Shown one piece after another: positions 4,202 through 29,360 of a DNA stretch of 38,288 bases. Made by a program: the position numbers and the translations under genes. The stretch's first letter is position 1. Each line of letters starts with the position of its first letter. Source of the DNA: Saprospiraceae bacterium (GTDB taxonomy: Bacteria > Bacteroidota > Bacteroidia > Chitinophagales > Saprospiraceae). The notes beneath the pieces were generated by a model, which saw nothing but the letters and a program-made list of their open reading frames with translations, was not told the DNA's origin and made no database searches. The stretch spans positions 1-38,288 of the forward strand of contig JAHDFX010000030.1 in NCBI GenBank assembly GCA_020627965.1. The letters run 5' to 3'.

Positions 4202-4844
4202 TTGCCACCAATGCCTTTTCGGTAGGCTTAGAAGCGATCTTTACATCTTTGAATCCCAGATCATTCAATGCCTGGGCGGTGGTTTTGCCTATGGCAATGA
4301 CAGACTGATGTGTTTCCAATTGATGGAATTTAAAATAAACTTCTGCATTGGTCGGACTGGTAAATACCAAAATACTTTCACCCTGCCTGGCAGGATTTTC
4401 AACAGGCATGTTGTAATAAGCCACTACATCTGTAAAAGCTATTTTACCTTGTAATAAATTTCTGATAGAATGGCGGGAATGATGGGCACATATGAAAGCA
4501 ACATGCTCGTTTTCAGATACCTTTAAAAATTCCTGGGCAGTACTTTCTGGTTCTCCGGTTCCTGTGAAATCGGCTTCTATATTATAGCTTCTTAGCGCCT
4601 CGGCACTACTTTCTCCTATCACCGCAACACATACACCTATGGGTAATTCTTCTTTCTGAAAAAAGTATTGAATACCTTTTTTACTATAAAAAAATATCCA
4701 GTCTATCTTATTGGGTAATATAAATTTTTTGGGTGCGAAGTCTATGAATGAATTTCCACTGACCGACCAGCCCTCTTTGCTTAATGTTTTAAGAAAGATA
4801 CTTTCGGGAGTTAATTTGCGTGATATAAAAACAGTTTTAGTCAA
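4143..4844 (-). CDS. hemD: Uroporphyrinogen-III synthase
   Basis: A 233-residue protein matching the two-lobed HemD fold: the opening VFISRKL, the mid-section VAVIGESSAEALR, and the second-lobe signatures ILVFTSPTNAEVYF and VIAIGKTTAQALNDLG. HemD cyclises hydroxymethylbilane to uroporphyrinogen III in the cytosolic tetrapyrrole (heme) pathway. The family has low sequence conservation, but these motifs in the right order and the length make the call firm. The final dozen residues (NHRHRDDLSSTR) are encoded by an inserted REP-like hairpin, so the natural C-terminus was probably shorter or different. It stands alone, without other hem genes nearby. Confidence 0.85.
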   Translation of the reverse strand: MTKTVFISRKLTPESIFLKTLSKEGWSVSGNSFIDFAPKKFILPNKIDWIFFYSKKGIQYFFQKEELPIGVCVAVIGESSAEALRSYNIEADFTGTGEPESTAQEFLKVSENEHVAFICAHHSRHSIRNLLQGKIAFTDVVAYYNMPVENPARQGESILVFTSPTNAEVYFKFHQLETHQSVIAIGKTTAQALNDLGFKDVKIASKPTEKALVATVVSASLNHRHRDDLSSTR

Positions 4845-4907
4845 TTATAAGCTCTAAAAATTCAGTACAAATTTAAATAAAAAATTAATAGAGCCAACAG
4901 GTTTTTT

Positions 4908-5186
4908 TTAATACATCAATGAAACCAAAGAGAAACAAACAGATAAACCTAATGCGAGTAGCCAGAATGCTTTTTCTTTATAAAAATGTTCCTTTCGTTC
5001 CAGCAGTATGTACGAAAGATGCGTCAGAAACGCAGCTGATGAAAATCCTAATGCAATCATGAGTAGCCTTTTAAAATTATATGTAGATTTGAGGTATTTG
5101 AACAATGTTTTTTTTACTAACGCCTTATTGTACGGCTTAGTATTAAAAAAGATGCGAATACCCCTGTAAAAGTTGTTTATTAACAA
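4908..5186 (-). CDS. Small membrane protein of unknown function
   Basis: An open frame of 92 codons beginning with TTG; an internal ATG at 5058-5060 would give a 50-residue product starting MIALGFSSAAF. Both versions contain two hydrophobic helices (LLMIALGFSSAAFLTHLSYIL and AFWLLALGLSVCFSLVSL) separated by a short charged loop, so it would be an inner-membrane hairpin protein. I do not recognise the family. It is divergent from the interrupted RidA gene with about 18 bases between starts if TTG is used, which makes the shorter ATG version somewhat more plausible because it leaves room for promoters. Confidence 0.45.
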   Translation of the reverse strand: MLINNFYRGIRIFFNTKPYNKALVKKTLFKYLKSTYNFKRLLMIALGFSSAAFLTHLSYILLERKEHFYKEKAFWLLALGLSVCFSLVSLMY

Positions 5187-5204
5187 AACATTAAAGTATG
5201 AAAT

Positions 5205-5417
5205 ATGAAAAAAATCGTCAGTTCAGGAGAAAAATGGGAGGATATAGTAGGTTATTCTCGTGCAGTAAGAGTAGGTAATATCATTGAAGTAGCCGGAACT
5301 ACTGCTGTCAGGAATAGCGAGATCGTAGGCAAGGACGATATGTACGCCCAAACAAAATATATTTTTGAAATTATAGAAAAGGCTTATTCTACTGAACAAC
5401 AAAAAAAGATAATATGA
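5205..5417 (+). pseudogene. RidA/YjgF-family protein, truncated by an IS insertion
   Basis: About the first 60 codons encode the N-terminal half of a RidA-type enamine/imine deaminase: VGYSRAVRVGNIIEVAGTTA, then DDMYAQTKYIFEIIEKA. RidA proteins are normally about 115-155 residues, with the catalytic Arg and Glu in the C-terminal half, which is absent. Native sequence ends near 5384, where the terminal inverted repeat of the IS4-family element starts; the last residues before the stop are encoded by the IS. No C-terminal RidA fragment is found on the far side of the IS, so part of the gene has been deleted rather than simply interrupted. The product should be inactive. Confidence 0.85.
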
Positions 5418-5452
5418 TAAAAATGTTGAAATTTGGCTAAGAAGTCTTAAAA

Positions 5453-5491
5453 AGGCGAATACTTTTCTTTGACCGAGAATCATATTCGCCT
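5453..5491 (+). promoter_or_regulatory. Hairpin abutting the transposase start codon
   Basis: AGGCGAATA (5453-5461) and TATTCGCCT (5483-5491) form a perfect 9-base-pair stem with a 21-base loop, and the right arm touches the transposase ATG at 5492. In mRNA this would bury the ribosome docking region. Such hairpins in IS elements (known for IS10 and IS50) limit transposase made from read-through transcripts. The stem is seen; the control function is inferred. Confidence 0.55.
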
Positions 5492-6661
5492 ATGTTAGAA
5501 TTAAATAATTCTAAGGAGTTACAAAGGTACTTCCTTAATTTGAAAATGCAAAAGCTAGATATACTTTTGCTTGTGTGCAGTAGTATGCTGGCTGTTCAGA
5601 GTACGAACTTAAGCTTGTGTGCGAAACGTATGCCCAAAGTGTTAGGTGAACACATTAGCTATGAAGCGGCTTATAGTCGATTGAAACGATTTTTTCAGAC
5701 TGGTTTAACAGAACCAATACTTCGGGGCGTTTGTCTGTTAGTGATTCATACTTTTTGCCGTTCCCCAAATTGTTATCTGTTACTGGATAGAACCAACTGG
5801 AAGTATGGCAAACTGAATATCAATCTTCTGGTTGTGGGTGTACTGTATCGGGATGTTTTTATTCCTTTAGTCTGGAAGGATTTGGGCAGAGCAGGAAACA
5901 GCAACTCAAAACAACGTTTAGCACTGATAGATAAATTGTTGAAATGGTGGTCTTTATCGGCAGTTCCACTTCCTGAATTACACATTGCCGGAGACCGGGA
6001 GTTTATTGGTTTTGGCTGGCTGAAAGGTCTGGAAGTAAGAGGGATAAAATTCGTTATGCGCATACCAGTCAGCTTTAAAATTCAGGCATGGCTTAATGGG
6101 AAAATTAAAGACCGCCGTTTACGCCTCAGCGTTATACAGCGGTATTTGTCCTGGACAGGACTGGATAGTATAGAAGCTGTACTAGAATCAGAATATATCG
6201 TAAAACTCTGTGTGTTTAACAATGACAGTACGAGAGCCAAAGCAAAGCACATATATCTGATGACTAATATGGAGGACATTAGCGAAGCCTCTGTGTTTTA
6301 CAGGAAGCGATATAAAATTGAAGTGTGTTTTAAGCATCTCAAATCAAGTGGACTGAATCTAGAAGACACTTCGCTTGAGGGACAACACAAAATGGACTTA
6401 ATGTTTGCTGTACTCACAATTGTTTACCTGATGGCTATACAAAAAGGCATTGTCCATTTTGAAATAAACGGACAGCAGGAAATGAAAATGTTTCTTGACC
6501 CTAAACCATATATTGTGCCAGTTAAATCAGTTTTTATGAAGGGCTTTGAGTACATAATGGCGCAAATATTTACGCTGGAGGAGTTTGTAGAAGGGCTTTA
6601 TCAACTCGTAAAATGGAGAGCCAGACAGCAAAACCCTCTATATCAACACTTTTATACTTAA
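5492..6661 (+). CDS. IS4-family DDE transposase
   Basis: A full-length 389-residue transposase with an RNase H-like DDE core. The first Asp lies in LLLDRTNWKYG, the second in IAGDREFIG, and the catalytic Glu sits in the IS4 signature Y-(2)-R-(3)-E-(6)-K, seen here as YRKRYKIEVCFKHLK. No frameshift or stop interrupts it, so the element may still be mobile. The start used is the ATG directly after the hairpin at 5453-5491; a later Met (MQKLDILLL) is possible. It is the only gene of the element and would act on the 15-base terminal repeats by cut-and-paste transposition. Confidence 0.92.
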   Translation: MLELNNSKELQRYFLNLKMQKLDILLLVCSSMLAVQSTNLSLCAKRMPKVLGEHISYEAAYSRLKRFFQTGLTEPILRGVCLLVIHTFCRSPNCYLLLDRTNWKYGKLNINLLVVGVLYRDVFIPLVWKDLGRAGNSNSKQRLALIDKLLKWWSLSAVPLPELHIAGDREFIGFGWLKGLEVRGIKFVMRIPVSFKIQAWLNGKIKDRRLRLSVIQRYLSWTGLDSIEAVLESEYIVKLCVFNNDSTRAKAKHIYLMTNMEDISEASVFYRKRYKIEVCFKHLKSSGLNLEDTSLEGQHKMDLMFAVLTIVYLMAIQKGIVHFEINGQQEMKMFLDPKPYIVPVKSVFMKGFEYIMAQIFTLEEFVEGLYQLVKWRARQQNPLYQHFYT

Positions 6662-6748
6662 ACAAAAATCATTGTTCAGTAGAATACCCTTATTCTACAA
6701 CTTGATGATAATATATATAAGTATCAGCAAAGCATTAGGGGGTGGGAT

Positions 6749-7282
6749 ATGGCACCACAGGCAGGTTTATTATCACTTGGCAGTTTAATTTTTTTAATAA
6801 AAATAACAGAATTAAGCTTTTTACTCACCTTTCTTGGAATAAATTTATGCTCTCTACTTGTTTTAGCTTATGCCTTTTGGGTACCTCCCAGAGTCTTGGT
6901 TTTAGATCGTCTCAACGATAAAATTACATTTTTCAAGAGAAGTCGTACCAAATCTGTAGCCTTTAAATTTAGTGAAGGTGAAACTAGAGTTGGATATATG
7001 GAAGGTTTTAAAGAAGCATTATTCCTTAGAGAAAAGGGGAATCGTCGAAATAAAGGAATAATTTCCTTACACGCAGTAGAAGATTTCTGGACACTATACG
7101 TCTGGTTTATGGACAAAAACCGCCCCTTACCGCCCGGCACTGCCTTCGATCCATATCGTGAAAAAGACTTTCAGCGTCGGAAAGCAGAGGGTTTTCCGCC
7201 TCCTTTATATCCAAGTCTGGTGCCTACGCCTGAGGCTACGCCGGAGCAGCAGAAAGAACGGGAGAAGTATTGGAAAGGTTAG
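6749..7282 (+). CDS. Membrane-anchored protein of unknown function, probably 5'-truncated
   Basis: From the ATG at 6749 this gives 177 residues. There are two hydrophobic helices in the first 60 residues (LSLGSLIFLIKI and FLLTFLGINLCSLLVLAYAFW), then a soluble domain beginning VLVLDRLNDKITFFKRSR and ending in a Pro/Glu-rich tail (PTPEATPEQQ). The frame stays open upstream to 6683, inside the right end of the IS, reading LILQLDDNIYKYQQ before the Met. The true N-terminus was therefore probably lost with the RidA C-terminal half. The pattern of two helices followed by a beta-rich segment resembles membrane PH-like proteins, but I do not recognise the family. It converges on the next gene with only 7 bases between. 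Confidence 0.6.
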   Translation: MAPQAGLLSLGSLIFLIKITELSFLLTFLGINLCSLLVLAYAFWVPPRVLVLDRLNDKITFFKRSRTKSVAFKFSEGETRVGYMEGFKEALFLREKGNRRNKGIISLHAVEDFWTLYVWFMDKNRPLPPGTAFDPYREKDFQRRKAEGFPPPLYPSLVPTPEATPEQQKEREKYWKG

Positions 7283-7289
7283 AAAGCAA

Positions 7290-9620
7290 TCATTTAGGAA
7301 TCTTATAGGTATTGTACATCACTTGCTCTTCCATTTCACCATAATATACATCAGCCGCTAAAGGACGAACCATAAATTCATCGGCGACAATGCCAGTGGT
7401 TTTTAGGTCTTCTGATTCCAGATAGAGGTGTACCCGATTGCCGGGCGACTGGTAACGGAACACTATTTTTGCCATGACCCATTCTCCATCACCATATATT
7501 TCTGTTTCAAATTTTGGACTGATGACATCCAAGCCGACCTGCTCGCCTTTTTGATTGTACTGATAATGAAATAGCTTAGGAAAGCCGGGACGGTAATTAT
7601 CGCCGGGTGTCCATACACTGACCTGATATACGCCGGGTTCATTTAAAATGCCATCGTGTAGGGTGATGCGGATGCTGTCGCCACTATGGGCAGCGCCGTT
7701 TCCGGCAAATGGGCTGGCTTTTCCGTCGTCGAATCTTTTTAAAATGATGTTTGCCGGCGCTGTATTGGTCAGGAAATCTATGCCTTTTTGTAGGCTGTCC
7801 TGCTGAGTGAGGTAGTTCTTTTTTATTTTTTCAAAACGGGTTTCAAATGCCGATAAAGGCAGTTCGTACAGGGTAATTTTTTCATTTTTATAAAGCTGAT
7901 TGGCTTTGTTGATGAGTTGCTGTTCATCTGGTTTTTTATTGCTGTTATTGAAGACCAGTAAGAGGAATGGCTTATCGCCAATGTCTTTTAATAAGTTTTT
8001 CTCAATACAATCGCTGCTGAATAGCTGTGTCATGCGGGCTGCCTGAGAGATGGAGGAACGGGGAGAGTGTAGTGCAGCAATGGATAAGCCTGTTTCAAAG
8101 GCGCATTTGTAAGCTTGTGCTGCTGCCCGCCCATCACGATACAAATACCATTTTTCGGAACCATTATTAAAATAGGGAACTGGCAAAATTGCCTGAAAAT
8201 CTTCTACTTTTCGTCCGGCTGCTGTCAGGTATTGGATATAATCATCATTGTCCTTAAAGATGTAATTTTCATTTTTATGTCCATACATAATCTGGGCTGT
8301 TGTATGAATATTGATAATGCCTTCGAATAGCCAGAAACCGAGAATAATGACAGGGAGGGCGATGGAGGCTATTTTGCAAAAATTAATACCAGAGCCATTA
8401 TGCTGTTCAGCTTTTTGGCGACAAGCCTGAATAATCTGATAAAAATAATAAGCAACGAATACTGAATAGACATAGTAAAATGCCCAGGCAAATCGTCCGA
8501 GGGAGCGGAATTGCCGTAGTTGAGGAATCCAGTCGAGCAGGAAGCCAAACCAGATAAAAGGCAGGGCAAAAGACAGGATGAGCAGAAGAATAGCCCCCCA
8601 AAGAAAGGCATTTAATGTTTTTGCTTCGCTGAATTGTAAAGCTGTTTTAAACTGTCGATTTAGGAGTCGCCAGATGGTTCTTATACCAATGATGACCAAA
8701 ACCAATAAGCCCCAGAAACCGACGTAAGCCATGCCTTCCATTTCTACACCCGGCAATTTGGCGAAAGCCCACCAATGACGAATGGGGCCAAAACTGGGAA
8801 AAAAAACGGATTCAAACTGACTTTTATATACCCATAAGCCATAAGGGGCAATGTGCCGATCAGTCACCGGATCGGTCATGCCTGTGAATATGCCGAGTAG
8901 TATGATGGGCAATAAAGCCGTTGCGAAAAGCAGTATTAAGGTACGGCTATGTGATTTGAGTTGCTGTATATTTTGTAAGGCATATATTGCGGCGAAAGCC
9001 AGTACAAAAAAACTACCTAATGGCAGGTAATATGGATGCAGCAAACCAAAAAAACAGATGCCGACTATGATGAATAGAGACCATTTTAATTTAGAAGTAC
9101 TGAGGAATTTTAATAAGAAATACCAGAGCATTGGGACATACAGAGAGAATGCCAGGCTGTAGTGAAATTCCAGTCGCATGATCTGTGGGGAAAGGAAACA
9201 GATGCACAATGCAGCAGGAACGGCGTACCAGTTTGCCAGTTTGTAATGGCGAAGAATTTTGTAAAGAAGCCAGCTACAAAGCCCGAAAGAGAGCAGGACG
9301 GTCAGATTGATAATGCCAACAGAATAGGGGTGTAGTGTGATGATGTGATTGTCGATGAAGTTGAGTAGCCAGGCATAAGCTGCAAAGCTATCAGTGAATA
9401 AGAGATGCTCGCCATAGGGGTAACTCATGCCATCAAACCACCAGCCTTTACCGTGTTTGAGTTGGTAAGCAAAGGTGAAATAGTTTTTTATGCCATCTCC
9501 ACCGGGATTGAACAGGCGGCTGTTGGCTTCGAAGATAAAGCCACCTAGTGCTATGAACAGTATGCCATAGGTACATAGCTGAAGAATAATAACCGGTGCA
9601 TGCCGGCGAAGAAATTTCAT
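7290..9620 (-). CDS. Large polytopic membrane protein, GT-C glycosyltransferase-like or YfhO-like
   Basis: A 776-residue protein. The N-terminal 450 or so residues contain about a dozen hydrophobic helices; the first extracytoplasmic loop carries an acidic GGDGIKNYF motif where GT-C glycosyltransferases keep their catalytic Asp. The remaining 300 or so residues are soluble and would face the periplasm, with a beta-rich C-terminal section (GVYQVSVWTPGD, HLYLESEDL). This layout fits lipid-linked sugar transferases or the YfhO group. The acceptor and sugar cannot be predicted. Two terminator-like hairpins lie upstream, one of them only 62 bases before the start, so expression may involve leader attenuation. 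Confidence 0.6.
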   Translation of the reverse strand: MKFLRRHAPVIILQLCTYGILFIALGGFIFEANSRLFNPGGDGIKNYFTFAYQLKHGKGWWFDGMSYPYGEHLLFTDSFAAYAWLLNFIDNHIITLHPYSVGIINLTVLLSFGLCSWLLYKILRHYKLANWYAVPAALCICFLSPQIMRLEFHYSLAFSLYVPMLWYFLLKFLSTSKLKWSLFIIVGICFFGLLHPYYLPLGSFFVLAFAAIYALQNIQQLKSHSRTLILLFATALLPIILLGIFTGMTDPVTDRHIAPYGLWVYKSQFESVFFPSFGPIRHWWAFAKLPGVEMEGMAYVGFWGLLVLVIIGIRTIWRLLNRQFKTALQFSEAKTLNAFLWGAILLLILSFALPFIWFGFLLDWIPQLRQFRSLGRFAWAFYYVYSVFVAYYFYQIIQACRQKAEQHNGSGINFCKIASIALPVIILGFWLFEGIINIHTTAQIMYGHKNENYIFKDNDDYIQYLTAAGRKVEDFQAILPVPYFNNGSEKWYLYRDGRAAAQAYKCAFETGLSIAALHSPRSSISQAARMTQLFSSDCIEKNLLKDIGDKPFLLLVFNNSNKKPDEQQLINKANQLYKNEKITLYELPLSAFETRFEKIKKNYLTQQDSLQKGIDFLTNTAPANIILKRFDDGKASPFAGNGAAHSGDSIRITLHDGILNEPGVYQVSVWTPGDNYRPGFPKLFHYQYNQKGEQVGLDVISPKFETEIYGDGEWVMAKIVFRYQSPGNRVHLYLESEDLKTTGIVADEFMVRPLAADVYYGEMEEQVMYNTYKIPK

Positions 9621-14730: not shown

Positions 14731-15003
14731 ATGACAGCTTCTGCTCAAATATTCCTAAATTATATCAGGGAAAATAGAGGGCCAGTTGATTATTTTTATA
14801 ATAAATGTACAAAGGATCTTATATTAAATATCTGTTTTGGTAAAGAATCAATTTTGCCAAAACAGAAGCTGTTATTAGAGGTTACTAAAACAATTAATTC
14901 AATTTTTTCTTCTCTTCTGTACTCATCAAATTCAACAAATAAAAACGGTTATGTTAATGTCGGAAGACTAACTCTTGAACAGGCTAAACGACGGCCTGAA
15001 TAA
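14731..15003 (+). pseudogene. Truncated, diverged TIR-domain ORF (third TIR copy)
   Basis: A 90-residue ORF that lines up along its length with the TIR domain of the next gene: FLNYIREN against FLSYARDD, KESILPKQKLLLEVTKTI against KKSILTGQNWSLEIAKAI, and SSNSTNKNGY against SHNSTTKRGY. It ends right after this last block, whereas TIR domains run about 125-140 residues, so the final strands and helices are missing. The Glu at the catalytic position is kept (LLEVTKTI), but the Gly and Trp of the loop before it are lost. It directly follows a perfect consensus promoter, so it is probably still transcribed. It could be a decayed duplicate or a mini-TIR that regulates the full protein by hetero-assembly. 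Confidence 0.6.
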
Positions 15004-15087
15004 GAGAAATCTATCGGGTAGTGTGATAGTGTGGCATTGATTTTGAAATTTATAAAAAAGAATTATAACGTTTTTATTAAGTAAAGA

Positions 15088-15900
15088 ATGGATACAGATA
15101 ATGGGAAAATTAAGGTTTTTTTGAGCTATGCAAGAGATGATATAAAGATTGCCGAGCGCCTATATAATGAACTTAGTAGTAGAAATGATATAAAAGTATG
15201 GTTCGATAAAAAATCAATATTAACTGGTCAGAATTGGTCTCTAGAGATTGCAAAGGCAATAAGAGATTGTAGTTTTTTTATTTTACTACTTTCTCATAAT
15301 TCTACAACTAAGAGAGGTTACATACAAAAGGAAATCAAGGAGGCACTTGAAGCTTATGAGTATGTTCCAGAGGGTACTATTTTTATTCTTCCTGCCAGAA
15401 TCGAGTCTGTAACTCCGCCAAGTTCATTAAAAAAACTTCAATATGTGGATTTATTTCCGAGTTCTAATTGGAGTTCGGGTGTTCAACAACTTATTAAATC
15501 AGTAACATATTCGTTTAATAAGAAAAAGAAAATATTTTTTAATTATCATGAAAACGATATCGAATTAGTAGAGAAATTACATAATTTTTTGGAAAAAAAT
15601 AAGATAAAATTTGAAGATAAAGATTCATTTACAAATGCCAGTAGTATGAGTAGTCATATGGAAGAACTCATCCAAAATACAGATACTTTTATTACTCTAC
15701 TGTCACCTAAATCAACAGATTTTGTAAACAAATCAGGTTATTTTACTGTAAAAAATCAGTATTGGATCAAGCACAGGAGTAGTGATCCGAAATATCAAGG
15801 AATATTAATTCAAGAAAATGCTTGTAGTATCCCTGATGACTTTAGTAATTTCAGGATTATGGATAAATATGAGTTTGTATTCGATTGGGTTACTAAATAA
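15088..15900 (+). CDS. Tandem TIR-domain protein (candidate NADase effector)
   Basis: A 270-residue protein made of two TIR-like domains and little else. TIR1 (about 8-135) has VFLSYARDD in box 1, VWFDKKSILTGQNW as the BB-loop region, Glu53 in SLEIAKAI at the position of the catalytic Glu of TIR NADases, then FILLLSHNST. TIR2 (about 152-270) repeats the pattern as IFFNYHEND, EDKDSF, MEELIQNTDTF and LSPKSTDF, but aligned on the conserved Ile the catalytic position is His, so it may be inactive. Bacterial TIR effectors consume NAD or make signal nucleotides in anti-phage defence. It lies 48 bases upstream of a TPR gene in the same direction, and the low G+C relative to htpG suggests an acquired island. 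Confidence 0.8.
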   Translation: MDTDNGKIKVFLSYARDDIKIAERLYNELSSRNDIKVWFDKKSILTGQNWSLEIAKAIRDCSFFILLLSHNSTTKRGYIQKEIKEALEAYEYVPEGTIFILPARIESVTPPSSLKKLQYVDLFPSSNWSSGVQQLIKSVTYSFNKKKKIFFNYHENDIELVEKLHNFLEKNKIKFEDKDSFTNASSMSSHMEELIQNTDTFITLLSPKSTDFVNKSGYFTVKNQYWIKHRSSDPKYQGILIQENACSIPDDFSNFRIMDKYEFVFDWVTK

Positions 15901-15948
15901 AATATTGGTAACCTGCTTAGTCGTTATTACAGGCTGAACAAAAAAACA

Positions 15949-17130
15949 ATGACAATGAATAGAAATGAAATCGAAATAGGATTATTTGAAGCAATTCTAT
16001 CCAGAGCCAATAACTCTCAGACCTTGGCAGATATTGCAATTGAACATCATAACAAAGACTATGAAGGACGTGGAACAGGTCTTGTTAAACAACTTATAGA
16101 ATACATAAACAAAAATAAAGCGAACCAAAGCACGTTAAGTGTTCCAGAAAGTGAAACCCCTCTTCCGCCAGAAGACTATTTTTTAAAAGGTTTAGATCAT
16201 TTTTTCAAAGGAGAATATAAAAAGGCATTACCCCCATTTGAATTAGCTCTTAGAAAAGACTCTCCTGTTGAGGATTCAATGATATTAAATAAGATTGGAG
16301 CTTGTCATATCAAATTGGGGAATTTTGATGAAGCAGATAAGATATTAACTCAATCTATTGAAGCAAATGAAAAATACCCCACAGGATATTACAATTTCGG
16401 AATTTTAGCCAAAAAACAAAGAGAAGAATTACTATCCAAAGGAAAATATAGAGAAGCCAATAAAAGATTAGGTTTTGCAATTAACCTTTTTGAATTGGCT
16501 ATAGAAAAAGTAGATAAAATTAATGAGGACAATAAGGATGATAAAAAAACAAATAATAAATACGAAGCGGTCTATTCTCATAATAATATAGCTACCTCAT
16601 ATAAAGATATATACCTGTATAATGGAGATGAAAAATCACTACTTAGGGCTATTGAAAGGTTGGAAAGTCTAATAAAACGTAATCCTAATGTGGAAGACCA
16701 CGGGCTTACCTATTATAATTTAGCTTGCTTTTATTCGTTAAAGAAGGACTATGAAAATGCTTTTAGATATTTAGAGTCTTCCTTTAAAGCTGATATTATA
16801 AATGTACCAGACTCTATGAATGATGTAGATCTATATAATATTAAAACAAGCAAATTTGAGCAATATAGAACTTTAATAAAAAAATATTTAGAAGAATATA
16901 TCGAAACCATTCATAAAAACGTTAACAACCTGCTGAAGCGTAGAGAAATAGAAAAAATCAAAACATTTGCAATTCCAGAGTTAGAAAATAATCTTGTAAA
17001 TAGGAATATTGTTAATGCAGAAACATATCATTTATTGGGCAATTGCTATGCCTTACTTGGAAATAGAAAAGAGAGAAATAAATACATGAGTTTATATGTA
17101 AAACACATGCATGAAAAACTCTATGATTGA
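15949..17130 (+). CDS. TPR protein with a possible effector-associated N-terminal domain
   Basis: A 393-residue soluble protein. Residues about 5-57 form a compact helical module (IGLFEAILSRA, TLADIAIEHH, GLVKQLIEYINK) that resembles in spacing the effector-associated/death-like adaptor domains of bacterial conflict systems; this resemblance is only by eye. A low-complexity linker follows, then tetratricopeptide-like repeats: DYFLKGLDHFFKGEYKKALP, ILNKIGACHIKLGNFDEADK, YYNFGILAKK, YYNLACFYSLKKDYENAFRY and, near the end, YHLLGNCYALLGNRKE. The start could be Met1 or Met3. It follows the tandem TIR gene closely and probably shares its promoter at 14643-14673, so it may be the sensor or scaffold that recruits the TIR effector. 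Function beyond protein binding is inference. Confidence 0.75.
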   Translation: MTMNRNEIEIGLFEAILSRANNSQTLADIAIEHHNKDYEGRGTGLVKQLIEYINKNKANQSTLSVPESETPLPPEDYFLKGLDHFFKGEYKKALPPFELALRKDSPVEDSMILNKIGACHIKLGNFDEADKILTQSIEANEKYPTGYYNFGILAKKQREELLSKGKYREANKRLGFAINLFELAIEKVDKINEDNKDDKKTNNKYEAVYSHNNIATSYKDIYLYNGDEKSLLRAIERLESLIKRNPNVEDHGLTYYNLACFYSLKKDYENAFRYLESSFKADIINVPDSMNDVDLYNIKTSKFEQYRTLIKKYLEEYIETIHKNVNNLLKRREIEKIKTFAIPELENNLVNRNIVNAETYHLLGNCYALLGNRKERNKYMSLYVKHMHEKLYD

Positions 17131-22025: not shown

Positions 22026-22075
22026 AGCTACCACAATTTAGTATGTTTTTTGGAATTATTTGGGGTATTTAGCTA

Positions 22076-22333
22076 TTAAGCTTGAAGCAGTGTCTTTTTA
22101 AGGTCTTCATGACTGATAAAGTTTCCTTTTTCTATATTACCGGAAATCTCTTTTATTTTTAATTCAAATTCATCTCTTGTCATTGGCTGACCATTAATAT
22201 CATAACCTGCAACCTGATTTTGCTGTACTTTTACCAGGTTTTGCAGAATTACATAATAAGCTTCCAATAAGGTACTATCTTCTGTATTTTCTAAAATCTG
22301 ATTAATGGAAAGCCGAATATCTCTTGCTGTCAT
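22076..22333 (-). CDS. Antitoxin-like small protein, partner toxin not found
   Basis: An 85-residue protein. The N-terminal half is a helical segment (LSINQILENTEDSTLLEAYYVILQ, shown in part) and the C-terminal half reads VAGYDINGQPMTRDEFELKI, then GNFISHEDLKK. That layout is common to small Bacteroidota antitoxins encoded before RelE/ParE-type toxins, in which the C-terminal tail wraps the toxin. No RelE-like ORF lies on either side: downstream is the giant T9SS gene after 41 bases and upstream is an ISAs1 remnant. It may be an orphan, or the toxin may have been displaced. The identification is by pattern only. Confidence 0.5.
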   Translation of the reverse strand: MTARDIRLSINQILENTEDSTLLEAYYVILQNLVKVQQNQVAGYDINGQPMTRDEFELKIKEISGNIEKGNFISHEDLKKTLLQA

Positions 22334-22403
22334 ATTTCTAATTTTAACCCAAGTTCAATTTACAAATATTTTGGCAAAAAGCATAATACTTTTAATGTCA
22401 TTG

Positions 22404-23070
22404 AAGGGTTTTCCGATAAAATTATTTGAAACAAAAAGAAGCAAGTAAGGATTCGTATATTAGTTGTGAAGAAACAAAAAACGAACACGTACTTGCTATG
22501 AGTAAAATTAAAACATTTTTCGAGGCTTTACAAACTACTCCGGAAATAGATATGCGAGATAACCGTGGTAAGACTCATAACTTACCGCTAATTTTGTTAG
22601 AGTTTGTATGTGCGCTATTGTGTAATCGAGACGGCAATCAATCGAGTATTCATCGTCATATGCAAGCCCATCACCAACGACTTTCCGAAGAGCTGGGTTT
22701 GATGGATACTGTCCCCAAAAAACAGTATGTCGCTCCTATTTTCCGATAATACTATCTCAAGTGAATGGTAAAGTTTTTTCTAAGTTGATTTTTCAGCACT
22801 ATGGTATTGAGCTATCTGCCAGGCAAACAACCTGGTTTGCAGGAGACGGAAAAGAACTCCGGGGTACAATACAAAAGGGACATACACGAGGTGAGTCCAT
22901 CGTGCAATTTGTTCGTCATGCGGACAGGTCGGTACTTTGTGAAGGCTTTTTTACGGGTCGCAAGGAAAGCGAAGTGAAAAACAAAAGAGCTTTGCTCGAT
23001 AATTTCGCTGATAATTTTGACCAATGCATCCAACGGCTCAAGGAAATTAATTTTTTATAAGAAAACCCTT
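22404..23070 (+). mobile_element. ISAs1-family element, internally deleted, with ends and target duplication
   Basis: Terminal inverted repeats AAGGGTTTTC (22404-22413) and GAAAACCCTT (23061-23070) bound a 667-base unit. TTAATGTCA occurs at 22392-22400 and again at 23069-23077, a likely 9-base target duplication, though its register with the repeats is off by a few bases. Intact ISAs1 elements are about 1.2-1.3 kb. Here the transposase gene is frameshifted and joined from its N-terminal part to its last 30 or so codons. It could not move unaided but might be mobilised by a complete copy elsewhere. Confidence 0.75.
22498..23060 (+). pseudogene. ISAs1-family transposase, frameshifted and internally deleted
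   Basis: The N-terminal part (from ATG 22498, MSKIKTFFEAL, then DNRGKTHNLPLILLEFV) is the DDE_Tnp_1-associated domain of ISAs1/H-repeat transposases. It runs to about 22746, where the frame breaks. Two extra bases around TTCCGATAATACTA move the continuation ILSQVNGKVFSKL to another frame. The second frame contains WFAGDGKELRGTI with the first catalytic Asp and then GRKESEV, after which the sequence jumps to what looks like the family's C-terminal end (FADNFDQCIQRLKEINFL). The section with the second Asp and the Glu is missing. The product is therefore inactive. Confidence 0.85.
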
Positions 23071-23096
23071 AATGTCAATATCTTTTGTATTTGACG

Positions 23097-24077
23097 TTAT
23101 TTTACTTTTAAGAATTTAAATAATGTATTACCAAAAGCTGCATTGGCTGGTTTATCTTCAAGTAATTTTAGTATATCACTTCTTTTCATTCCATAGGGGT
23201 CCCACGATAGTTCTTCTTTTTGAAGAAGAAAATTATTGTCATTTTCATGAAGCTCAATGAATTTATTGAAACCTATTCTCCCTTGACTTCTATTAATTCC
23301 ACAGGCACACAAAAGAAATCCACCGTCCTGGATTATCGCATTATAAGTATCTCGTATTTTTTCTATGAACTCATAATTTTCGATTACCGCTGTTACAAAA
23401 TGTTCTGTTACTATGTCATATTTTTCTCTAACAGAGAAGAAAATTTCATGATTTGTCAAATCTCCTTGTAACGTAGTTGTCTTTATTCCTTCGTAATTAA
23501 TTATTCCTTCCTTTTCAATTAAATCAATAAATACATCTTGGATGCTTAGTTCAAATCCTTGAATATCAATCTTTCTGTCTTTTTTTACTGTTTCCCAATT
23601 CTTCCTAATGATATCTATACACAACAGAGGGAATGAACACTTATCCGTTACTACAAGGTCAATATTCATCTTAAAAGGTAAGCTTTCCAATACCCTTTTT
23701 AAGATTATAGTATAAGTGTAGTGATGTATAAAACTTGCTACACCAGCCTCTAGAATAACTACAGAATCACCATCAGAAAACTTGTTAATAAAAATATCTC
23801 TTAGAGTATCTTGAAGCCATAGTCTCTGTTCTTTTACTAAAAACCAACCGCCAGCAGGAGGATTATTGTCTGGATGAAATTTTTCGGCTAATTCTCTAGA
23901 CTTAACAGAAGGTTCTATTTGCCCATTATTAAAATGAATTTTTTGAATAATATCCGCTGTAATTTCATATGGTGTATTAAATACTCTATCTTTATGATAA
24001 CCACAAGGAATTATTTTGTTATCCTCTAAATAACAATCTGATGTTTTTTTACTATTTAACTCTATCTGTAACAACAT
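23097..24077 (-). CDS. SAM-dependent methyltransferase-like protein
   Basis: A 326-residue protein with a Rossmann-type methyltransferase core. SVVILEAGVASFIHHYTY stands where motif I (usually D/ExGxGxG) is expected, IDLVVTDKCSFPLLCIDI resembles motif II with its acidic ribose-binding residue, EKYDIVTEHFVTAVI fits motif IV, and IQDGGFLLCACG is the strand-5 motif. Motif I lacks the usual second and third glycines, so substrate or cofactor use may be unusual. The N-terminal 90 residues are of unknown type. Its start is 6 bases from the divergent Roco gene, so the two are probably co-regulated or one start is wrong. No substrate can be assigned. Confidence 0.55.
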   Translation of the reverse strand: MLLQIELNSKKTSDCYLEDNKIIPCGYHKDRVFNTPYEITADIIQKIHFNNGQIEPSVKSRELAEKFHPDNNPPAGGWFLVKEQRLWLQDTLRDIFINKFSDGDSVVILEAGVASFIHHYTYTIILKRVLESLPFKMNIDLVVTDKCSFPLLCIDIIRKNWETVKKDRKIDIQGFELSIQDVFIDLIEKEGIINYEGIKTTTLQGDLTNHEIFFSVREKYDIVTEHFVTAVIENYEFIEKIRDTYNAIIQDGGFLLCACGINRSQGRIGFNKFIELHENDNNFLLQKEELSWDPYGMKRSDILKLLEDKPANAAFGNTLFKFLKVK

Positions 24078-24083
24078 CTGGCA

Positions 24084-26438
24084 ATGTATTTTAATGAATT
24101 ACTATCTGAATCTAGATACTCAAAGAAGCTAAATTTAGCAAACATATTAAAAGAACAAAAACTCTTCGATGATTTTTTGAAAGATAAATCACAAGCAGAA
24201 CGTTCCAAAATTATACAGGCTAAGTTACTTGAGGTAGATATGAAGGATATAAAACATGTTGATTTGACAGGAAATAGTTTAGATATCATTCCTGAGTTTA
24301 TATTCCATATACCGAATTTAGTTACTTTAATACTTAAAAGAAATAAAATTAGGATAATCTCAGAAAAAATTAAGTTACTAAAACGTCTTGAAACATTAGA
24401 TTTAAGTGAAAATTCTTTTGTAGACTTTCCTACTAGCATATTGTCAATTAGTAATTTAAAAAATCTGAACCTACAGTTGAATAACATCTCTTGTTTACCT
24501 GACAAAATTGACGAACTATTCAATCTTGAACATTTTAGTATTTATGCGAATAATTTAGAGGCGTTACCTAAGTCTCTTTTAAATATAGACAATCTGAAAG
24601 AATTTGAGTTTCATTCCAATGATATTAAAGTGATTTTCGATAAACCTATTGAAACAATTCCTGCAGAAATATATAATCAAGGAATACGAGGAATTAATGC
24701 TTATCTACTATCAATAGATGGTAAAAGTGTAGAAAAATCTTATGAGGCCAAACTTGTTATTATAGGGAATAGTGGTGTAGGAAAAACGACATTAATTGAA
24801 AATTTATTGAATGAATCTTATGGCACTCTTTCTCATTCAAGTACTCATGGGGTTGAGGTTAGGGAATGGATGATAGATGGAGAACATTTAGGTTTGGAGC
24901 GTGATGTCACTTTTAAGCTTAATGTTTGGGACTTTGGTGGGCAGGGAGTTTATAGAGAACTCCAACAATTTTTTTGTTCTCAGAACACATTTTACATTTA
25001 TGTTACTTGCTCTAATAAAGAGATATCCAGAGATAAATATACTACAGATAGTTACTGGTTGTCAAGCATCCGCTCTTTAAGCTATAACCCCATGACCAAC
25101 CACTACAGTCCTATCATCTGTGTCATTAATAAATGTGACCAAGAGAATGGGTTAAATAGAAGCATACAGGAAAACTTGCTTCATCAGTTCAAAGAAAGCA
25201 TAGTAGATATGCAAGAAGTCAGTTGTAAAAAAGGTAAGGGAATTAAAGAGCTAAGAGCGTCTATATTTAGAAATATCAACAGAATAAACATTGAAAATGC
25301 TCCACTTGCTGATACAATTAGCAATAATTGGTTTAATCTGAAAAATAATATTCTAAGATTGAAAAAAGGCAGAAAAGCTATACTTACGAAAAGAGAATAT
25401 GAGCAATTATACCGAGAGCATAAACTTGAAAAAAATGAAGCAGAGGCGTTGTTAAAGTTTATGCATAGTACAGGTATGCTTGTATATTTTGAAACTAATT
25501 CAGAATTAAGGTGGTTTATTTTATTAGAAGTAAAGGTGCTTCTTGAAGTAACTCATAAATTGTATTTTAATTTACCTTCCCAACAAAGAAACAACGGCAT
25601 TATCACTATTGATGATTTTGAAGAATTAGTACATGGTGTTAACATGGAATGGGATCGGTTACTTTATTTTTTGAAATGGTTCAATATTATTCATGAAGTT
25701 GAGGAAAAAAGTGGAAAGTATCTTATTCCTCCATTATTACCAACAAGAACTGCTAATATTCCTGAATACTTGGAAAAAAATGATAGAAGTGTTAATATAA
25801 CATATAATTTTAATCCCTTTATTCCTGCAAGTTTATTTTATAAAATTTTGACAAAGAATTATGAATTGATAGACAATGCAAAAATTTCTAGCAGTGTTAT
25901 TATTTTCTCCTACAAAGGAGATAAAGTTGTACTAGAAGAGAACTGGAAAGAAAACACTTTATTACTAAAAGGGATGTCTACTAGCTCATGTCTAGAATTT
26001 ATGCTTCAAATTCAATTTGATATTTTTGTTTGCTTTAATACAATCTGCAAGTCTAAAAATATGAAAAACTACAATATGGGGGGGCGGGAAAGTCTAAAGC
26101 AGTTAATTAGATTAAATCAAACAATACCTAAGGATGAAATAGATAAAATAAAATCCAGACTATTAGGAAAATCAAGACCTGATAATAAATTAAGTATGAA
26201 TGAAGCTAACATGTTAGAGGGAGATATATCTAAAGGCTTATTAAGTCAGGTAATCAATAAATTAGTTGAAAGATGGAAAGGATGCGGAATTATCGGTGAG
26301 CTTCGTCGTGAGTATGAACAACTATATAGTGGAAGAAATATATCATTAACTATTACACGAGATGTCTATGAGGCTAGAATGAATGCACTTGGGCAGGTGC
26401 TTGTCGAAATTATAAAGGAGTATACAGAAAAAGTTTAA
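24084..26438 (+). CDS. Roco-family protein (LRR-Roc GTPase-COR)
   Basis: A 784-residue protein. Residues about 50-185 hold six leucine-rich repeats (for example LVTLILKRNKIRIISEKIK, LEHFSIYANNLEALPKSL). The Roc GTPase spans about 220-395, with P-loop GNSGVGKT (228-235), G3 DFGGQ (283-287), G4 NKCD (349-352) and the G5-like SCKKGKG. The COR domain follows (about 405-670; motifs MEWDRLLYFLKWFNIIHEV, LIPPLLP). A 120-residue helical C-terminal extension has no recognised domain. Roco proteins are the bacterial relatives of LRRK2: GTP-cycle-controlled dimers with regulatory LRRs. All GTP-binding motifs are intact. It lies between mobile elements in an AT-rich stretch, suggesting horizontal transfer. 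Its partner may be the divergent methyltransferase. Confidence 0.9.
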   Translation: MYFNELLSESRYSKKLNLANILKEQKLFDDFLKDKSQAERSKIIQAKLLEVDMKDIKHVDLTGNSLDIIPEFIFHIPNLVTLILKRNKIRIISEKIKLLKRLETLDLSENSFVDFPTSILSISNLKNLNLQLNNISCLPDKIDELFNLEHFSIYANNLEALPKSLLNIDNLKEFEFHSNDIKVIFDKPIETIPAEIYNQGIRGINAYLLSIDGKSVEKSYEAKLVIIGNSGVGKTTLIENLLNESYGTLSHSSTHGVEVREWMIDGEHLGLERDVTFKLNVWDFGGQGVYRELQQFFCSQNTFYIYVTCSNKEISRDKYTTDSYWLSSIRSLSYNPMTNHYSPIICVINKCDQENGLNRSIQENLLHQFKESIVDMQEVSCKKGKGIKELRASIFRNINRINIENAPLADTISNNWFNLKNNILRLKKGRKAILTKREYEQLYREHKLEKNEAEALLKFMHSTGMLVYFETNSELRWFILLEVKVLLEVTHKLYFNLPSQQRNNGIITIDDFEELVHGVNMEWDRLLYFLKWFNIIHEVEEKSGKYLIPPLLPTRTANIPEYLEKNDRSVNITYNFNPFIPASLFYKILTKNYELIDNAKISSSVIIFSYKGDKVVLEENWKENTLLLKGMSTSSCLEFMLQIQFDIFVCFNTICKSKNMKNYNMGGRESLKQLIRLNQTIPKDEIDKIKSRLLGKSRPDNKLSMNEANMLEGDISKGLLSQVINKLVERWKGCGIIGELRREYEQLYSGRNISLTITRDVYEARMNALGQVLVEIIKEYTEKV

Positions 26439-26455
26439 AACATGGTTGTCAGGGA

Positions 26456-26554
26456 GTGTTCAGAAAAGTCTGTCATTTTTAATTTGAAATATGTTTAGAA
26501 AATGGTATTGTTCACTAAAGTGTGTCAAAATTAAAAAAATTGACAACTGAACGC
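26456..26554. repeat. Short degenerate inverted-repeat element (MITE-like or IS scar)
   Basis: GTGTTCAG at 26456-26463 and CTGAACGC at 26547-26554 face each other. Further in, the left side reads GTCATTTTTAATTTGA and the right side, on the other strand, GTCAATTTTTTTAATTTTGA. The whole 99-base stretch is thus a loose palindrome between the Roco gene and the next lipoprotein gene. It contains no ORF. The ends look like insertion-sequence ends, but no transposase is present. Confidence 0.35.
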
Positions 26555-26579
26555 TAGACTGTTAGAAGATTATCTTAAA

Positions 26580-27113
26580 ATGATGATGCATAAACCGGTT
26601 TTATTCTTTATCCTAATTCTGATAGGGTGTACTTCAAAAAAAAATACAATAAATCAATATACGTATCCAGAGGAAATTGTTAAGTACAATTTAGAGCCTA
26701 AATACGATAGTGCCAAAATGATACTTTATGAAGCTCAAATCTATCGAAGTAGATTTGGTTTTCTTAATGGAAGAGAAATAAATTATGATTCAACAAAAAG
26801 AAGACCTTTTGTTGAGTGTGAACTAAAATTTGGAGAATTGGACATCAATCAAAGTAGAGACACAATAGAAATTTCTTTGTTTATGAGGAAAGGTGGCTCA
26901 GTTTCCGCAGTAATGATTCGCCCAACTCCTTATTCCGTAATTTTTATTAATGGCATTCCGTCAAGAATAAGAATTAGTGGTGCAGGGCATTCCTCCATAG
27001 AATCTGAGATTAATGAATATAGTTTAGAGATTTTGAAAGAGGAACTGAAATTACATTATGACAATCTAAATCCTTGGTTAAAACAAGAAGCAAAGAAAAG
27101 AGGTTATCTCTAA
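26580..27113 (+). CDS. Hypothetical lipoprotein
   Basis: A 177-residue protein whose start has three tandem Met codons; any could be used. A short lipoprotein signal (KPVLFFILILIGC, lipobox LIGC) places it in the membrane facing the periplasm. The mature part begins with Lys/Asn-rich sequence, then contains predicted beta strands (FVECELKFGELDI, TIEISLFMRKGG, YSVIFINGIPSRIRI) and ends in a helical, charged tail. I recognise no family. It follows the Roco gene after a small inverted-repeat element in the same direction. No functional link is evident. Confidence 0.65.
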   Translation: MMMHKPVLFFILILIGCTSKKNTINQYTYPEEIVKYNLEPKYDSAKMILYEAQIYRSRFGFLNGREINYDSTKRRPFVECELKFGELDINQSRDTIEISLFMRKGGSVSAVMIRPTPYSVIFINGIPSRIRISGAGHSSIESEINEYSLEILKEELKLHYDNLNPWLKQEAKKRGYL

Positions 27114-27318
27114 AAGTGTTTATGTAAAGCTTTTAGGCTTAGTTGAGTACAAGGTCTATTTCAAGAACAATCTATTTAGGATGGCTCTTTTTCTTATATA
27201 AGTTCAACAGTTTCTATTCACTGCCTATGCAAAAGTTCGCCTATATACTGAACAAAATCTGCCGACTAATATTCTTTCATTTCTTCCCCCTATCGAACAT
27301 CTCTTATTTTTTGCCAAC

Positions 27319-27348
27319 AAAAAAAGCCTCCGCAACAAATGCGGAGGC
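27319..27348 (-). terminator. Intrinsic terminator of the metalloprotease transcript
   Basis: GCCTCCGC (27326-27333) and GCGGAGGC (27341-27348) form a perfect GC-rich 8-base-pair stem with a 7-base loop, followed on the minus strand by seven T (27319-27325). It lies about 70 bases beyond the metalloprotease stop. The rest of the 303-base gap between 27113 and 27417 shows no convincing gene. Confidence 0.85.
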
Positions 27349-27416
27349 GTCCATGAGTGTGTCCCTGTAAGACCACTTAGTTTACTTCAAGAGTGATGTT
27401 TTGTTTAGGCGCTGGA

Positions 27417-29360
27417 TTATCTATTGATCGCCAACTTCTGTGTACGAGTTTCACTACCTGCTTTCAGGATGCAGTAGTACATACCTGCTGGTAAATGGCT
27501 GGCATTGAAGTTGATCTGATGACTACCCTTTAGCCGTTCTACACGATCAAGTAATGGGGCAATCATTTGCCCATTTAAATTGAAGACATGAAGACTAACT
27601 TCTGTATCTTCAGGCAAATCAATTTCGATAGTTGTATTGGAGCTGAATGGATTAGGGAATACACGTAAATCAGTTGAATTTAAGATTGCTGTTTCCAGTA
27701 GATCATCCATGCCTTCTGTGATAATGATATTATTGTCGTGTCCTTCTGATACTCTTGCGCCGCCGCAGCCGTCAATAAAAGCATTAAAAATGCCATCCTG
27801 TACATGGAATCCGGCTGTTAAAGTGATCGAGCTTCCTGCATCATAATCAACTGTTCCGCCACCTTGTATGATATTGGATGCTGAGATCGTATTATCAGCT
27901 TCTATATCCACATTTGCATTCGTGCCGTAAGTCGTTGTGAGTATAAGATCATCGGGGCAGCCTGCCGAACAAGCTGTCAGACAATTTGCATTATAGTACT
28001 CTGTTCGTATCAAATTTCCGGGTTGTGGCCCAAATCCGAGTGTGAAATTGATCCCTACATTATTCAGGTGGCAGTAGCTCATGATCGTTCCTCCATTAGC
28101 GGGTACAATCTGACTAGCTGCATTATAGCAGGAAGCGGGAGAAGTGCCAGGGTCTCCGTCATTTGCCCACCAGATATTTCCACAATCGTCGATCTGCGTA
28201 TTGCCGCCTGCATTCCAAAGACAAGAGTGCGTATGTCCTGAACCTAAATTGTGTCCCATTTCATGCGTAAAGACCATAATAGACCAAGAATAAGTAGGCA
28301 CAGGAGTAACTGAAGTTGACATGCTGCCACTTACGGCATAAGGACTATCTCCGCATAGTTGATCGAGATATGCACGCCCGCCTCCGATGCTTCTTGTAGT
28401 GATGAAATGTGCCAGATCGCCGGCATGATTGGGGTTGTTATTGCGAAATGCCGGTAGTATGGCACCCGTAGTCGTCATAGCTGCATAAGGATCAGCAATT
28501 GTCCATACTCCATAAGTAGCAAGGGTCACGGTGATACCTTCATTAGCATAAATAGTAGCCACTTCATTCATCAAAGCTGTGATATAACTGCCTACATTAG
28601 CAAAGCTTGACCCCTGGGCAATGTACATAGCATTATCTGCTTCTACGTATACACTAATACAATCTCCCTGATCTCTTCCCTGTACCTCAACTTCATCGTG
28701 TGGGTGAGGTTTGGGGATGTCGGATTCTTCTACTTCACAAGAAAAATCAGGAGTAGTCGTCAGGTTTCGATCATTGTATAAGATGTAAGTTTCGGTCTCC
28801 TCAGATAATTTTGCTAATACATAATTGCCGTTTTTATCAGAGATCATTGCTCTTACATGGTCATTGTAGATACTTAGGGCTGCCAGTGAGTTCGGTTGTC
28901 CTTTGATAATACCCCTGTAGAATAAACCTGGAAAAGCGTCGTAATCTCGTGGTTCTCCACCATTAATTTTAATTTGAAAATCTTCGGCAGTTACCCGTAC
29001 ACGGGTCAATTCCAATTCAAAGCTTTGTCCGGTTGCTACCGGAATTTCTACACTGATATTTCGTGTGCGACTGTTGTACCAGTTTGTCAGGTTATTCTCA
29101 TTCAGCTCCAGATAAGCTGCATCTGTTACATGTTGGTTGTACGTTTCAGCCAGGTAGTTCTTTTCGGATACGGTGAAGGGCGATATATTGTCAAATGAAC
29201 CGCTGTTCTTCTCTGTTTCTATCATCTGTGCCAGGCGATTCGGTGCGTCTGCTGCACTGTATTCAAATCCGGCTTTTGTATCCATGATTAAATCCTGCGC
29301 GTTGACCTGTAGGCATAAGCTAAGCAGGATAAGACTGAGTATTTTGTTTATATATTTCAT
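27417..29360 (-). CDS. Secreted reprolysin-like zinc metalloprotease with T9SS type-A sorting domain
   Basis: I chose the ATG at 29360 (647 residues) because it begins a typical signal peptide (MKYINKILSLILLSLCLQV); the frame opens 16 codons earlier. A propeptide region of about 200 residues precedes the catalytic domain. The zinc motif HEMGHNLGSGH (about His366-His376, catalytic Glu367) is the adamalysin/reprolysin (metzincin) form. A Met-turn-like GTIMSYCH follows downstream. The C-terminal 80 residues, beginning VFPNPFSSNTTIEI and ending RTQKLAINR, are a type-A T9SS sorting domain, so the protein is exported by the type IX system and probably attached to surface lipopolysaccharide. It is 47 bases downstream of the S74 gene and probably in the same operon. 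Confidence 0.92.
   Translation of the reverse strand: MKYINKILSLILLSLCLQVNAQDLIMDTKAGFEYSAADAPNRLAQMIETEKNSGSFDNISPFTVSEKNYLAETYNQHVTDAAYLELNENNLTNWYNSRTRNISVEIPVATGQSFELELTRVRVTAEDFQIKINGGEPRDYDAFPGLFYRGIIKGQPNSLAALSIYNDHVRAMISDKNGNYVLAKLSEETETYILYNDRNLTTTPDFSCEVEESDIPKPHPHDEVEVQGRDQGDCISVYVEADNAMYIAQGSSFANVGSYITALMNEVATIYANEGITVTLATYGVWTIADPYAAMTTTGAILPAFRNNNPNHAGDLAHFITTRSIGGGRAYLDQLCGDSPYAVSGSMSTSVTPVPTYSWSIMVFTHEMGHNLGSGHTHSCLWNAGGNTQIDDCGNIWWANDGDPGTSPASCYNAASQIVPANGGTIMSYCHLNNVGINFTLGFGPQPGNLIRTEYYNANCLTACSAGCPDDLILTTTYGTNANVDIEADNTISASNIIQGGGTVDYDAGSSITLTAGFHVQDGIFNAFIDGCGGARVSEGHDNNIIITEGMDDLLETAILNSTDLRVFPNPFSSNTTIEIDLPEDTEVSLHVFNLNGQMIAPLLDRVERLKGSHQINFNASHLPAGMYYCILKAGSETRTQKLAINR

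Follow-up and report, generated by a model that had tools for sequence, protein, structure and literature searches.

Prokaryotic proteins in which leucine-rich repeats (LRR), an AP-GTPase and a COR domain follow one another are treated in section 15 of PMC8195603, where they are reported with at least 24 different C-terminal domains and as predicted counter-invader systems; the same source names Haliscomenobacter hydrossis as possessing 11 copies of such proteins. Further described relatives are the Roco protein of Chlorobium tepidum (6hlu, 8r4b, 3dpu) and Roco2 of Methanosarcina barkeri (4wnr). Here, we present the analysis of a locus in a Saprospiraceae bacterium (contig JAHDFX010000030.1), at which a Roco gene and an orphan open reading frame (ORF) are oriented divergently. 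The whole stretch of 38,288 nucleotides that was analysed is called the window, and all coordinates refer to it. The features of the gene pair are:

23097-24077, minus strand: orphan ORF of 326 aa (ORF call), regarded as a methyltransferase gene in an earlier note on this DNA
24078-24083: gap of 6 bp separating the two start codons, read from the sequence
24084-26438, plus strand: Roco gene, 784 aa (ORF call, Pfam, model and structural alignment)
Layout of the Roco protein, plus strand: LRR at residues ~55-182, Roc 223-352, COR-A 414-552, COR-B to ~650, orphan C-terminus ~683-784 (Pfam; COR-B by model)
26004-26438, plus strand: C-terminal stretch of the Roco protein (last 144 residues), consisting of the end of COR-B and an orphan region predicted to be helical

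With a probability of about 0.6, we read the locus as an accessory junction at which a divergent Roco gene and an orphan gene were joined by rearrangement without a demonstrable partnership, the Roco protein being a conflict protein of the AP-GTPase/Roco type. It resembles the AP-GTPase (Roc)-COR counter-invader proteins (PMC8195603, section 15 and legend of Fig. 6) in the order LRR, AP-GTPase/Roc, COR and a C-terminal region of the kind that varies among members, and also in its copy number, as at least two copies exist in its own genome. In contrast to these proteins, its tail matched no Pfam domain, its COR-B is unseen by Pfam, no defence gene is adjacent, and its function is a prediction. 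Related to LRRK2, the protein known from Parkinson's disease, it represents a divergent bacterial example of a published kind and is located beside an ORFan.

The Roco identity, which had been proposed earlier, stood up well: LRR, Roc and COR-A were all detected by Pfam, and Roco structures lead the structural alignments. The Roc domain matched PF08477 with E 1.2e-21 (77.5 bits, cut-off 27) and is directly followed by COR-A (PF16095, E 3.8e-15, 56.5 bits, cut-off 35.3); the N-terminal repeats scored 34.2 bits for LRR_8 (cut-off 27). A model built from nine sequences had a mean predicted local distance difference test value (pLDDT) of 66; it is good for the LRR (block means of 82-95 for residues 71-170) and for COR-A, and poor beyond residue ~656. 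The top match found by VIA-align was the RocCOR structure 4wnr of M. barkeri Roco2 (Z 30.2; 3.2 Å, 310 aligned), followed by LRRK2 (8fo9, Z 27.7; 4.4 Å, 419 aligned); the C. tepidum structure 6hlu scored lower (Z 19.2; 10.1 Å, 536 aligned). COR-B was assigned on the basis of the model, which is of moderate confidence in this region and aligns with RocCOR structures up to residues 652-660. The protein shares the LRR-Roc-COR layout with C. tepidum Roco (6hlu, phmmer E 1.1e-36) and the Roc-COR fold with M. barkeri Roco2, but differs from both by its switch II and the added orphan tail, at a structural-alignment identity of ~20-25%. The GTPase motifs GNSGVGKTT, T254, DFGGQ and NKCD are all present, and GTP binding and hydrolysis are predicted, with switch II being divergent.

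The tail at residues ~683-784 is predicted to be helical with low pLDDT. It belongs to no Pfam family, and its one NCBIfam match is weak (E 0.068); the best PDB sequence match is to a pentatricopeptide repeat protein (E 0.0036). No structure chain listed matches the tail past residue ~680 as a separate domain, which, given the poor model of this part, is barely a test. For the last 144 residues, only two fragment matches occurred in 342 other genomes of the order, one with E 0.002 and five stops, the other with E 0.003 over 25 residues. PADLOC reported weak matches of the Roco protein to mads_8 (E 6e-5), mads_3 (E 4e-4) and VakA (0.03), all of which begin in the GTPase region.

Of the 396 genomes searched within the order, 51 (its own included) encode a relative of the Roco protein (E<=1e-20; 22-33% identity; two candidates scored per genome); the second copy in its own genome (G000:C292) is 27% identical. 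Among 25 aligned Rocos, namely the protein itself and 24 of the 30 chromosomal relatives, TIR domains occur in two and EAD11 in two. Conflict or defence annotations lie within 4-5 kb of five of the 12 plasmid Roco loci viewed: DUF4433/macro genes with BREX, type I restriction-modification (R-M), type I-F CRISPR with Tn7-like genes, CHAT-MoxR-NACHT, and EAD1. (A thirteenth plasmid record, from Leptospira, matched in the LRR only and was left out.) By analogy with other AP-GTPase/Roco conflict proteins of bacteria, the most likely mode of action of our Roco protein is that a ligand would be sensed by the LRR region, the Roc GTPase and COR would switch the state of assembly, and the C-terminal tail would act as the variable effector or adaptor. 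The locus adds one divergent Roco with an orphan tail to the published class of predicted immune switches.

Some of these relatives deserve mention in their own right. In Haliscomenobacter, the Roco of pHALHY02 lies near DUF4433/macro and BREX genes and that of pHALHY01 near type I restriction genes; we presume that the DUF4433/macro genes are DarTG-like. On plasmid NZ_CP101696.1 of Photobacterium toruni, a Roco gene with a COR domain (4743-7481 of the fetched locus L146) is flanked on one side by TnsA, Mu-type transposase and TniB genes plus a helix-turn-helix gene, and on the other by tniQ and type I-F csy genes; it looks like a Roco inside a CRISPR-associated transposon operon. Nine IMG/VR contigs encode relatives of our Roco protein as well, so the DNA of phages or prophages may be another vehicle for Rocos.

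The two ORFs of the pair are intact and divergent, with ATG codons at 24077 (minus) and 24084 (plus) and 6 bp in between, which confirms the spacing noticed previously. Since the minus-strand ORF offers only a TTG at codon 2 as another ATG, GTG or TTG start in its first 110 codons, the claim is firm on this side; for the plus-strand ORF, the alternatives are TTG32, ATG53 and TTG61. The gap also agrees with the earlier statement that no room exists for an intergenic promoter; probably, each gene is transcribed from a promoter within the 5' end of the other. Scanning with a consensus that we take to be the Bacteroidetes type, we obtained upstream of the minus-strand ORF candidates such as TTTG-N18-TAAATTTA and TTTG-N19-TATCTTTC, each with one mismatch. 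Equal or better matches arose in 23% of 1000 first-order Markov sequences for this ORF and in 74% for the Roco gene; therefore, no promoter can be claimed. Six divergent gaps exist in the window (6, 92, 114, 141, 647 and 1032 bp), among which the one between Roco gene and orphan is the smallest; a 6-bp divergent gap also occurred in one of 14 divergent pairs from Haliscomenobacter (four 50-kb stretches, two plasmids), a tally made by hand with a gene table that is incomplete. Both genes have a G+C content of 30%, compared to 37% for the window and 42-43% for the large genes flanking them, which bears out their description as AT-rich; the G+C content at third codon positions (GC3) is 0.21 for the orphan and 0.25 for the Roco gene.

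The Haliscomenobacter pair with this spacing is on NC_015512.1 (17516-18488 of stretch L179), where cas1 and a hypothetical gene diverge with exactly 6 bp between their starts. Type III-B CRISPR genes and a reverse transcriptase are located nearby.

The orphan ORF had been named a methyltransferase, and the strings ILEAGVAS, VVTDKC, YDIVTEHF and GGFLLCACG do resemble what we take to be motifs of class I S-adenosylmethionine (SAM) methyltransferases. This identification did not find support in the database searches: the ORF matched no family in Pfam (E<=10), NCBIfam (E<=10) or PADLOC (E<=1), its only PHROG match was an entry of unknown function (E 0.32), and none of the seven PDB chains matching at E<=10 is a methyltransferase. 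In hhalign comparisons with profiles derived from 28 of 30 fetched loci (PF13649) and 26 of 30 (PF13489) after a length filter, the scores were 21.1 and 15.4, which were exceeded by two and four of 20 shuffles, respectively; other pieces of the window reached 11.5-17.8 over both profiles, some of them above 15.4. As a positive control, 25 of 26 proteins of the PF13489 set scored 62-189 against the PF13649 profile (probability 95-99.8%) and one scored 16.8. Note that these controls are easy positives; therefore, a remote methyltransferase could still escape this test. The single-sequence model of the orphan protein had a pLDDT of 31.9 and was unusable for determining the fold.

Searches for homologues of the orphan gave a consistent picture. 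In 395 genomes of the phylum, 396 of the order and 395 of the class (overlapping samples, each including the genome of the orphan), only the gene itself was a convincing match, and 72,556 plasmid records contained no homologue at E 0.01; among 50,697 phage records, there was one match with E 0.4. No convincing homologue was found in IMG/VR or GTDB contigs passing a stringent first filter of six 8-residue patterns. A match in genome G738 (E 9.5e-4) was discarded as chance because the target is an FtsX/MacB permease, and a likeness of residues 45-85 to the DnaJ J-domain (E 0.57-1.5) was likewise judged to be chance.

Weak matches with E<=0.5 led to 29 new loci (L041-L069), from which 19 ORFs were scanned in Pfam; the ten left out comprise eight with stops in the match, L066 with its 78-aa frame and L058, where the ORF picked was on the wrong strand. 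Among 25 of 51 families listed for these ORFs, methyltransferase families (N6_Mtase; RsmB/F) were present in at least two of the 19. One of them, L064, aligns weakly with orphan residues 239-294 (10.9 bits, E 0.1); we take it to be an RsmB/F-type methyltransferase with motif I at its residue 250. The match lies ~105 residues past this motif, near an LKxxGxLVxxxC segment, which is a plausible place in the fold, and it mildly supports a methyltransferase-like orphan protein, our odds being unchanged; the match to L067 is unlike any motif. In summary, the orphan shares motif-like letters and one weak RsmB/F-type alignment with the class I SAM methyltransferases (PF13649, PF13489), but none of its profile or sequence matches to them is significant. 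We do not class the orphan as a methyltransferase; a remote one is quite possible, our guess being about even odds.

The lack of a detectable homologue and the position at a junction with insertion sequence (IS) debris could also mean that only the Roco gene matters, the ORF on the minus strand being a remnant that is decaying or has no function. We regard this as improbable: a stop-free frame of 326 codons is very unlikely to arise by chance at 30% G+C, and its GC3 value fits a coding gene.

The proposed link between Roco and methyltransferase genes was not borne out by the neighbourhoods of other Rocos. When all ORFs of at least 50 codons in the fetched flanks were considered, no match to the orphan protein was found beside 51 other Roco loci (29 + 1 chromosomal, 9 on viral contigs, 12 on plasmids); seen from the Roco side and within these 51 loci, homologues of the two genes are never adjacent. 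For the 29 chromosomal loci, the flanks spanned ~1.5 kb on each side, some being clipped by contig ends. A divergent upstream neighbour exists in eight of the 30 chromosomal relatives and none of these matches a methyltransferase family: they are a macro domain protein, two B3_4/tRNA_bind proteins, a weak PccH match, NamZ, a transposase and two without family. By annotation, three of the 12 plasmid Rocos have a divergent neighbour (ParA family, M23 metallopeptidase, hypothetical). On plasmid H11, a type I DNA methyltransferase gene (R-M subunit) follows the Roco gene downstream on the same strand and is unrelated to the orphan ORF. The Pfam scan of neighbours covered a subset of 46 flanking ORFs beside 29 Roco loci (L004-L031, L033), with a 116-aa ORF abutting the N-containing 5' part in L022 being left out; among 25 of 69 families listed, the sole methyltransferase by name was homocysteine S-methyltransferase (PF02574), and a lone class I enzyme may still be hidden in the remaining families. 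Similarly, the titles and abstract openings of a part of the matching papers name no Roco-methyltransferase gene pair. Since the relatives are at most 33% identical and none aligned to the Roco tail, what the comparison of loci shows is that the pair does not characterise the Roco family as sampled; a recent, local partnership may still exist.

Such a partnership might take the form of a two-gene conflict unit. The orphan would then be a class I SAM methyltransferase that evolves fast and serves to modify or restrain either the Roco protein or the target of the latter, and overlapping divergent promoters would balance both genes. The motif-like letters as we read them, the plausibly placed RsmB/F-type alignment, the 6-bp spacing, the shared GC3 range of 0.21-0.25 and the IS remnants flanking the pair at 28 bp and 13 bp all point in this direction; the absence of any family match or homologue for the orphan, hhalign scores beaten by some of the shuffles where 25 of 26 known methyltransferases reach 62-189, and the 51 Roco loci lacking an orphan match argue against it, and we consider it unlikely. 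Its stronger form is very improbable, namely that the orphan represents a new, very divergent methyltransferase family partnering the Roco protein in a compact divergent defence module, where a sensor-switch would be combined with a modifying or restraining enzyme and the starts 6 bp apart would couple their expression. If it is true that both genes act together, they would provide a testable partner for bacterial Rocos, whose functions are largely unknown. As it stands, our result removes a tempting, unsupported link between bacterial LRRK2-like proteins and methylation.

The surroundings of the pair were compared with a congeneric genome (G718), and the following features were distinguished:

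22076-22333, minus strand: small ORF in the junction segment, 85 aa, weak Avs1c-like resemblance
22401-23068, plus strand: ISAs1-like element, internally deleted (Pfam, inverted arms, direct repeat), the only copy found in the genome
26452-26534: IS-end remnant, in which a terminal-repeat-like sequence of 31 nt occurs twice in direct orientation
26580-27113, plus strand: AT-rich ORF, 177 aa, lipoprotein-like start (by eye), no Pfam family

The window is collinear with G718 in a left block reaching to position 22054 and in a right block beginning at 27427. In G718, these blocks are on different contigs, both of which extend beyond the breakpoint and carry other genes there (no less than 8 kb and 17 kb were fetched). 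Neither of the matching places contains the 5.4-kb segment between the blocks (22055-27417), in which both genes of the pair, the ISAs1-like piece and the two ORFs of 85 aa and 177 aa are found. With the two flanks apart in G718, a clean insertion does not account for the locus; it is an accessory junction, located in a Bacteroidota chromosome and produced by rearrangement.

Distances of 28 bp and 13 bp separate the gene pair from the two IS remnants. For the left one, the designation as an ISAs1 derivative could largely be retained. It is supported by 18-nt inverted arms (22404-22421/23053-23070, 89%), by a direct repeat of 9 bp (TTAATGTCA), identical in its copies at 22392-22400 and 23069-23077, and by a 5' piece matching DDE_Tnp_1_assoc in Pfam (E 3.1e-8, 34 bits, cut-off 32.3); the right arm and the right repeat overlap by 2 nt, and the ends are approximate. 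In contrast, the 3' piece matched no family in Pfam or NCBIfam, and the NCBIfam ISAs1 match of the element stayed below the cut-off (E 0.096, 11.8 bits versus 70). The right element had been termed a mini inverted repeat; instead, it is mainly a direct repeat, with copies at 26452-26482 and 26504-26534 that are 74% identical. Sequence matching the region around the first copy recurs at five other places of the genome, all within ~60 bases of a contig end, as expected for the end of a multicopy IS, which is why we interpret the element as an IS-end remnant.

That the DNA is an acquired cassette, as the earlier note suggested, holds insofar as AT-rich accessory DNA is bracketed by IS remnants. 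One could go further and assume that these IS elements moved the pair as a discrete mobile cassette, given the AT-rich block between them and the lack of the segment at both places in G718. However, the ISAs1-like piece carries its own target-site-like repeat and therefore looks like an independent insertion and not like the end of a mobile unit. Moreover, the two IS ends are unlike in sequence, AT-rich DNA extends past the right remnant into the 177-aa ORF, and the flanks are not adjacent in G718. This explanation is consequently unlikely.

Returning to the reading as an accessory junction with a Roco conflict protein, several observations weigh against it. The Roco protein is the sole case among the 25 aligned Rocos in which Pfam does not see COR-B (detected in the other 24), and its switch II is GVYRELQQFF compared to an EIYHSTHQFF-like sequence in relatives; because of these two deviations, its GTPase cycle may differ. 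The next neighbours of the Roco gene are secreted proteins of the type IX secretion system type, without defence genes, and a TIR-domain gene is ~8 kb away. No conflict or defence annotation was present at seven of the 12 plasmid Roco loci, and the proportion of 5/12 stands without a matched control. Finally, the low GC3 common to both genes would equally fit a joint arrival and a partnership.

Within the junction segment, the 85-aa ORF gave weak matches in PADLOC (E 0.007) and NCBIfam (E 0.022, 14.9 bits, cut-off 70), as well as one (E 0.0013) to a PHROG whose function is unknown; we recognised no adjacent partner resembling a toxin. A second AT-rich patch of the window (14731-17130, GC3 ~0.22) contains a TIR-domain gene followed by a TPR gene. 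The former (15088-15900) matched PF13676 with E 2e-35 and, in PADLOC, TIR proteins of the Aga/ThsB type. Homologues of the TIR and the TPR gene (46% and 36%) are located between the same neighbours in the congeneric genome G718, and therefore this patch looks like a long-kept conflict locus.

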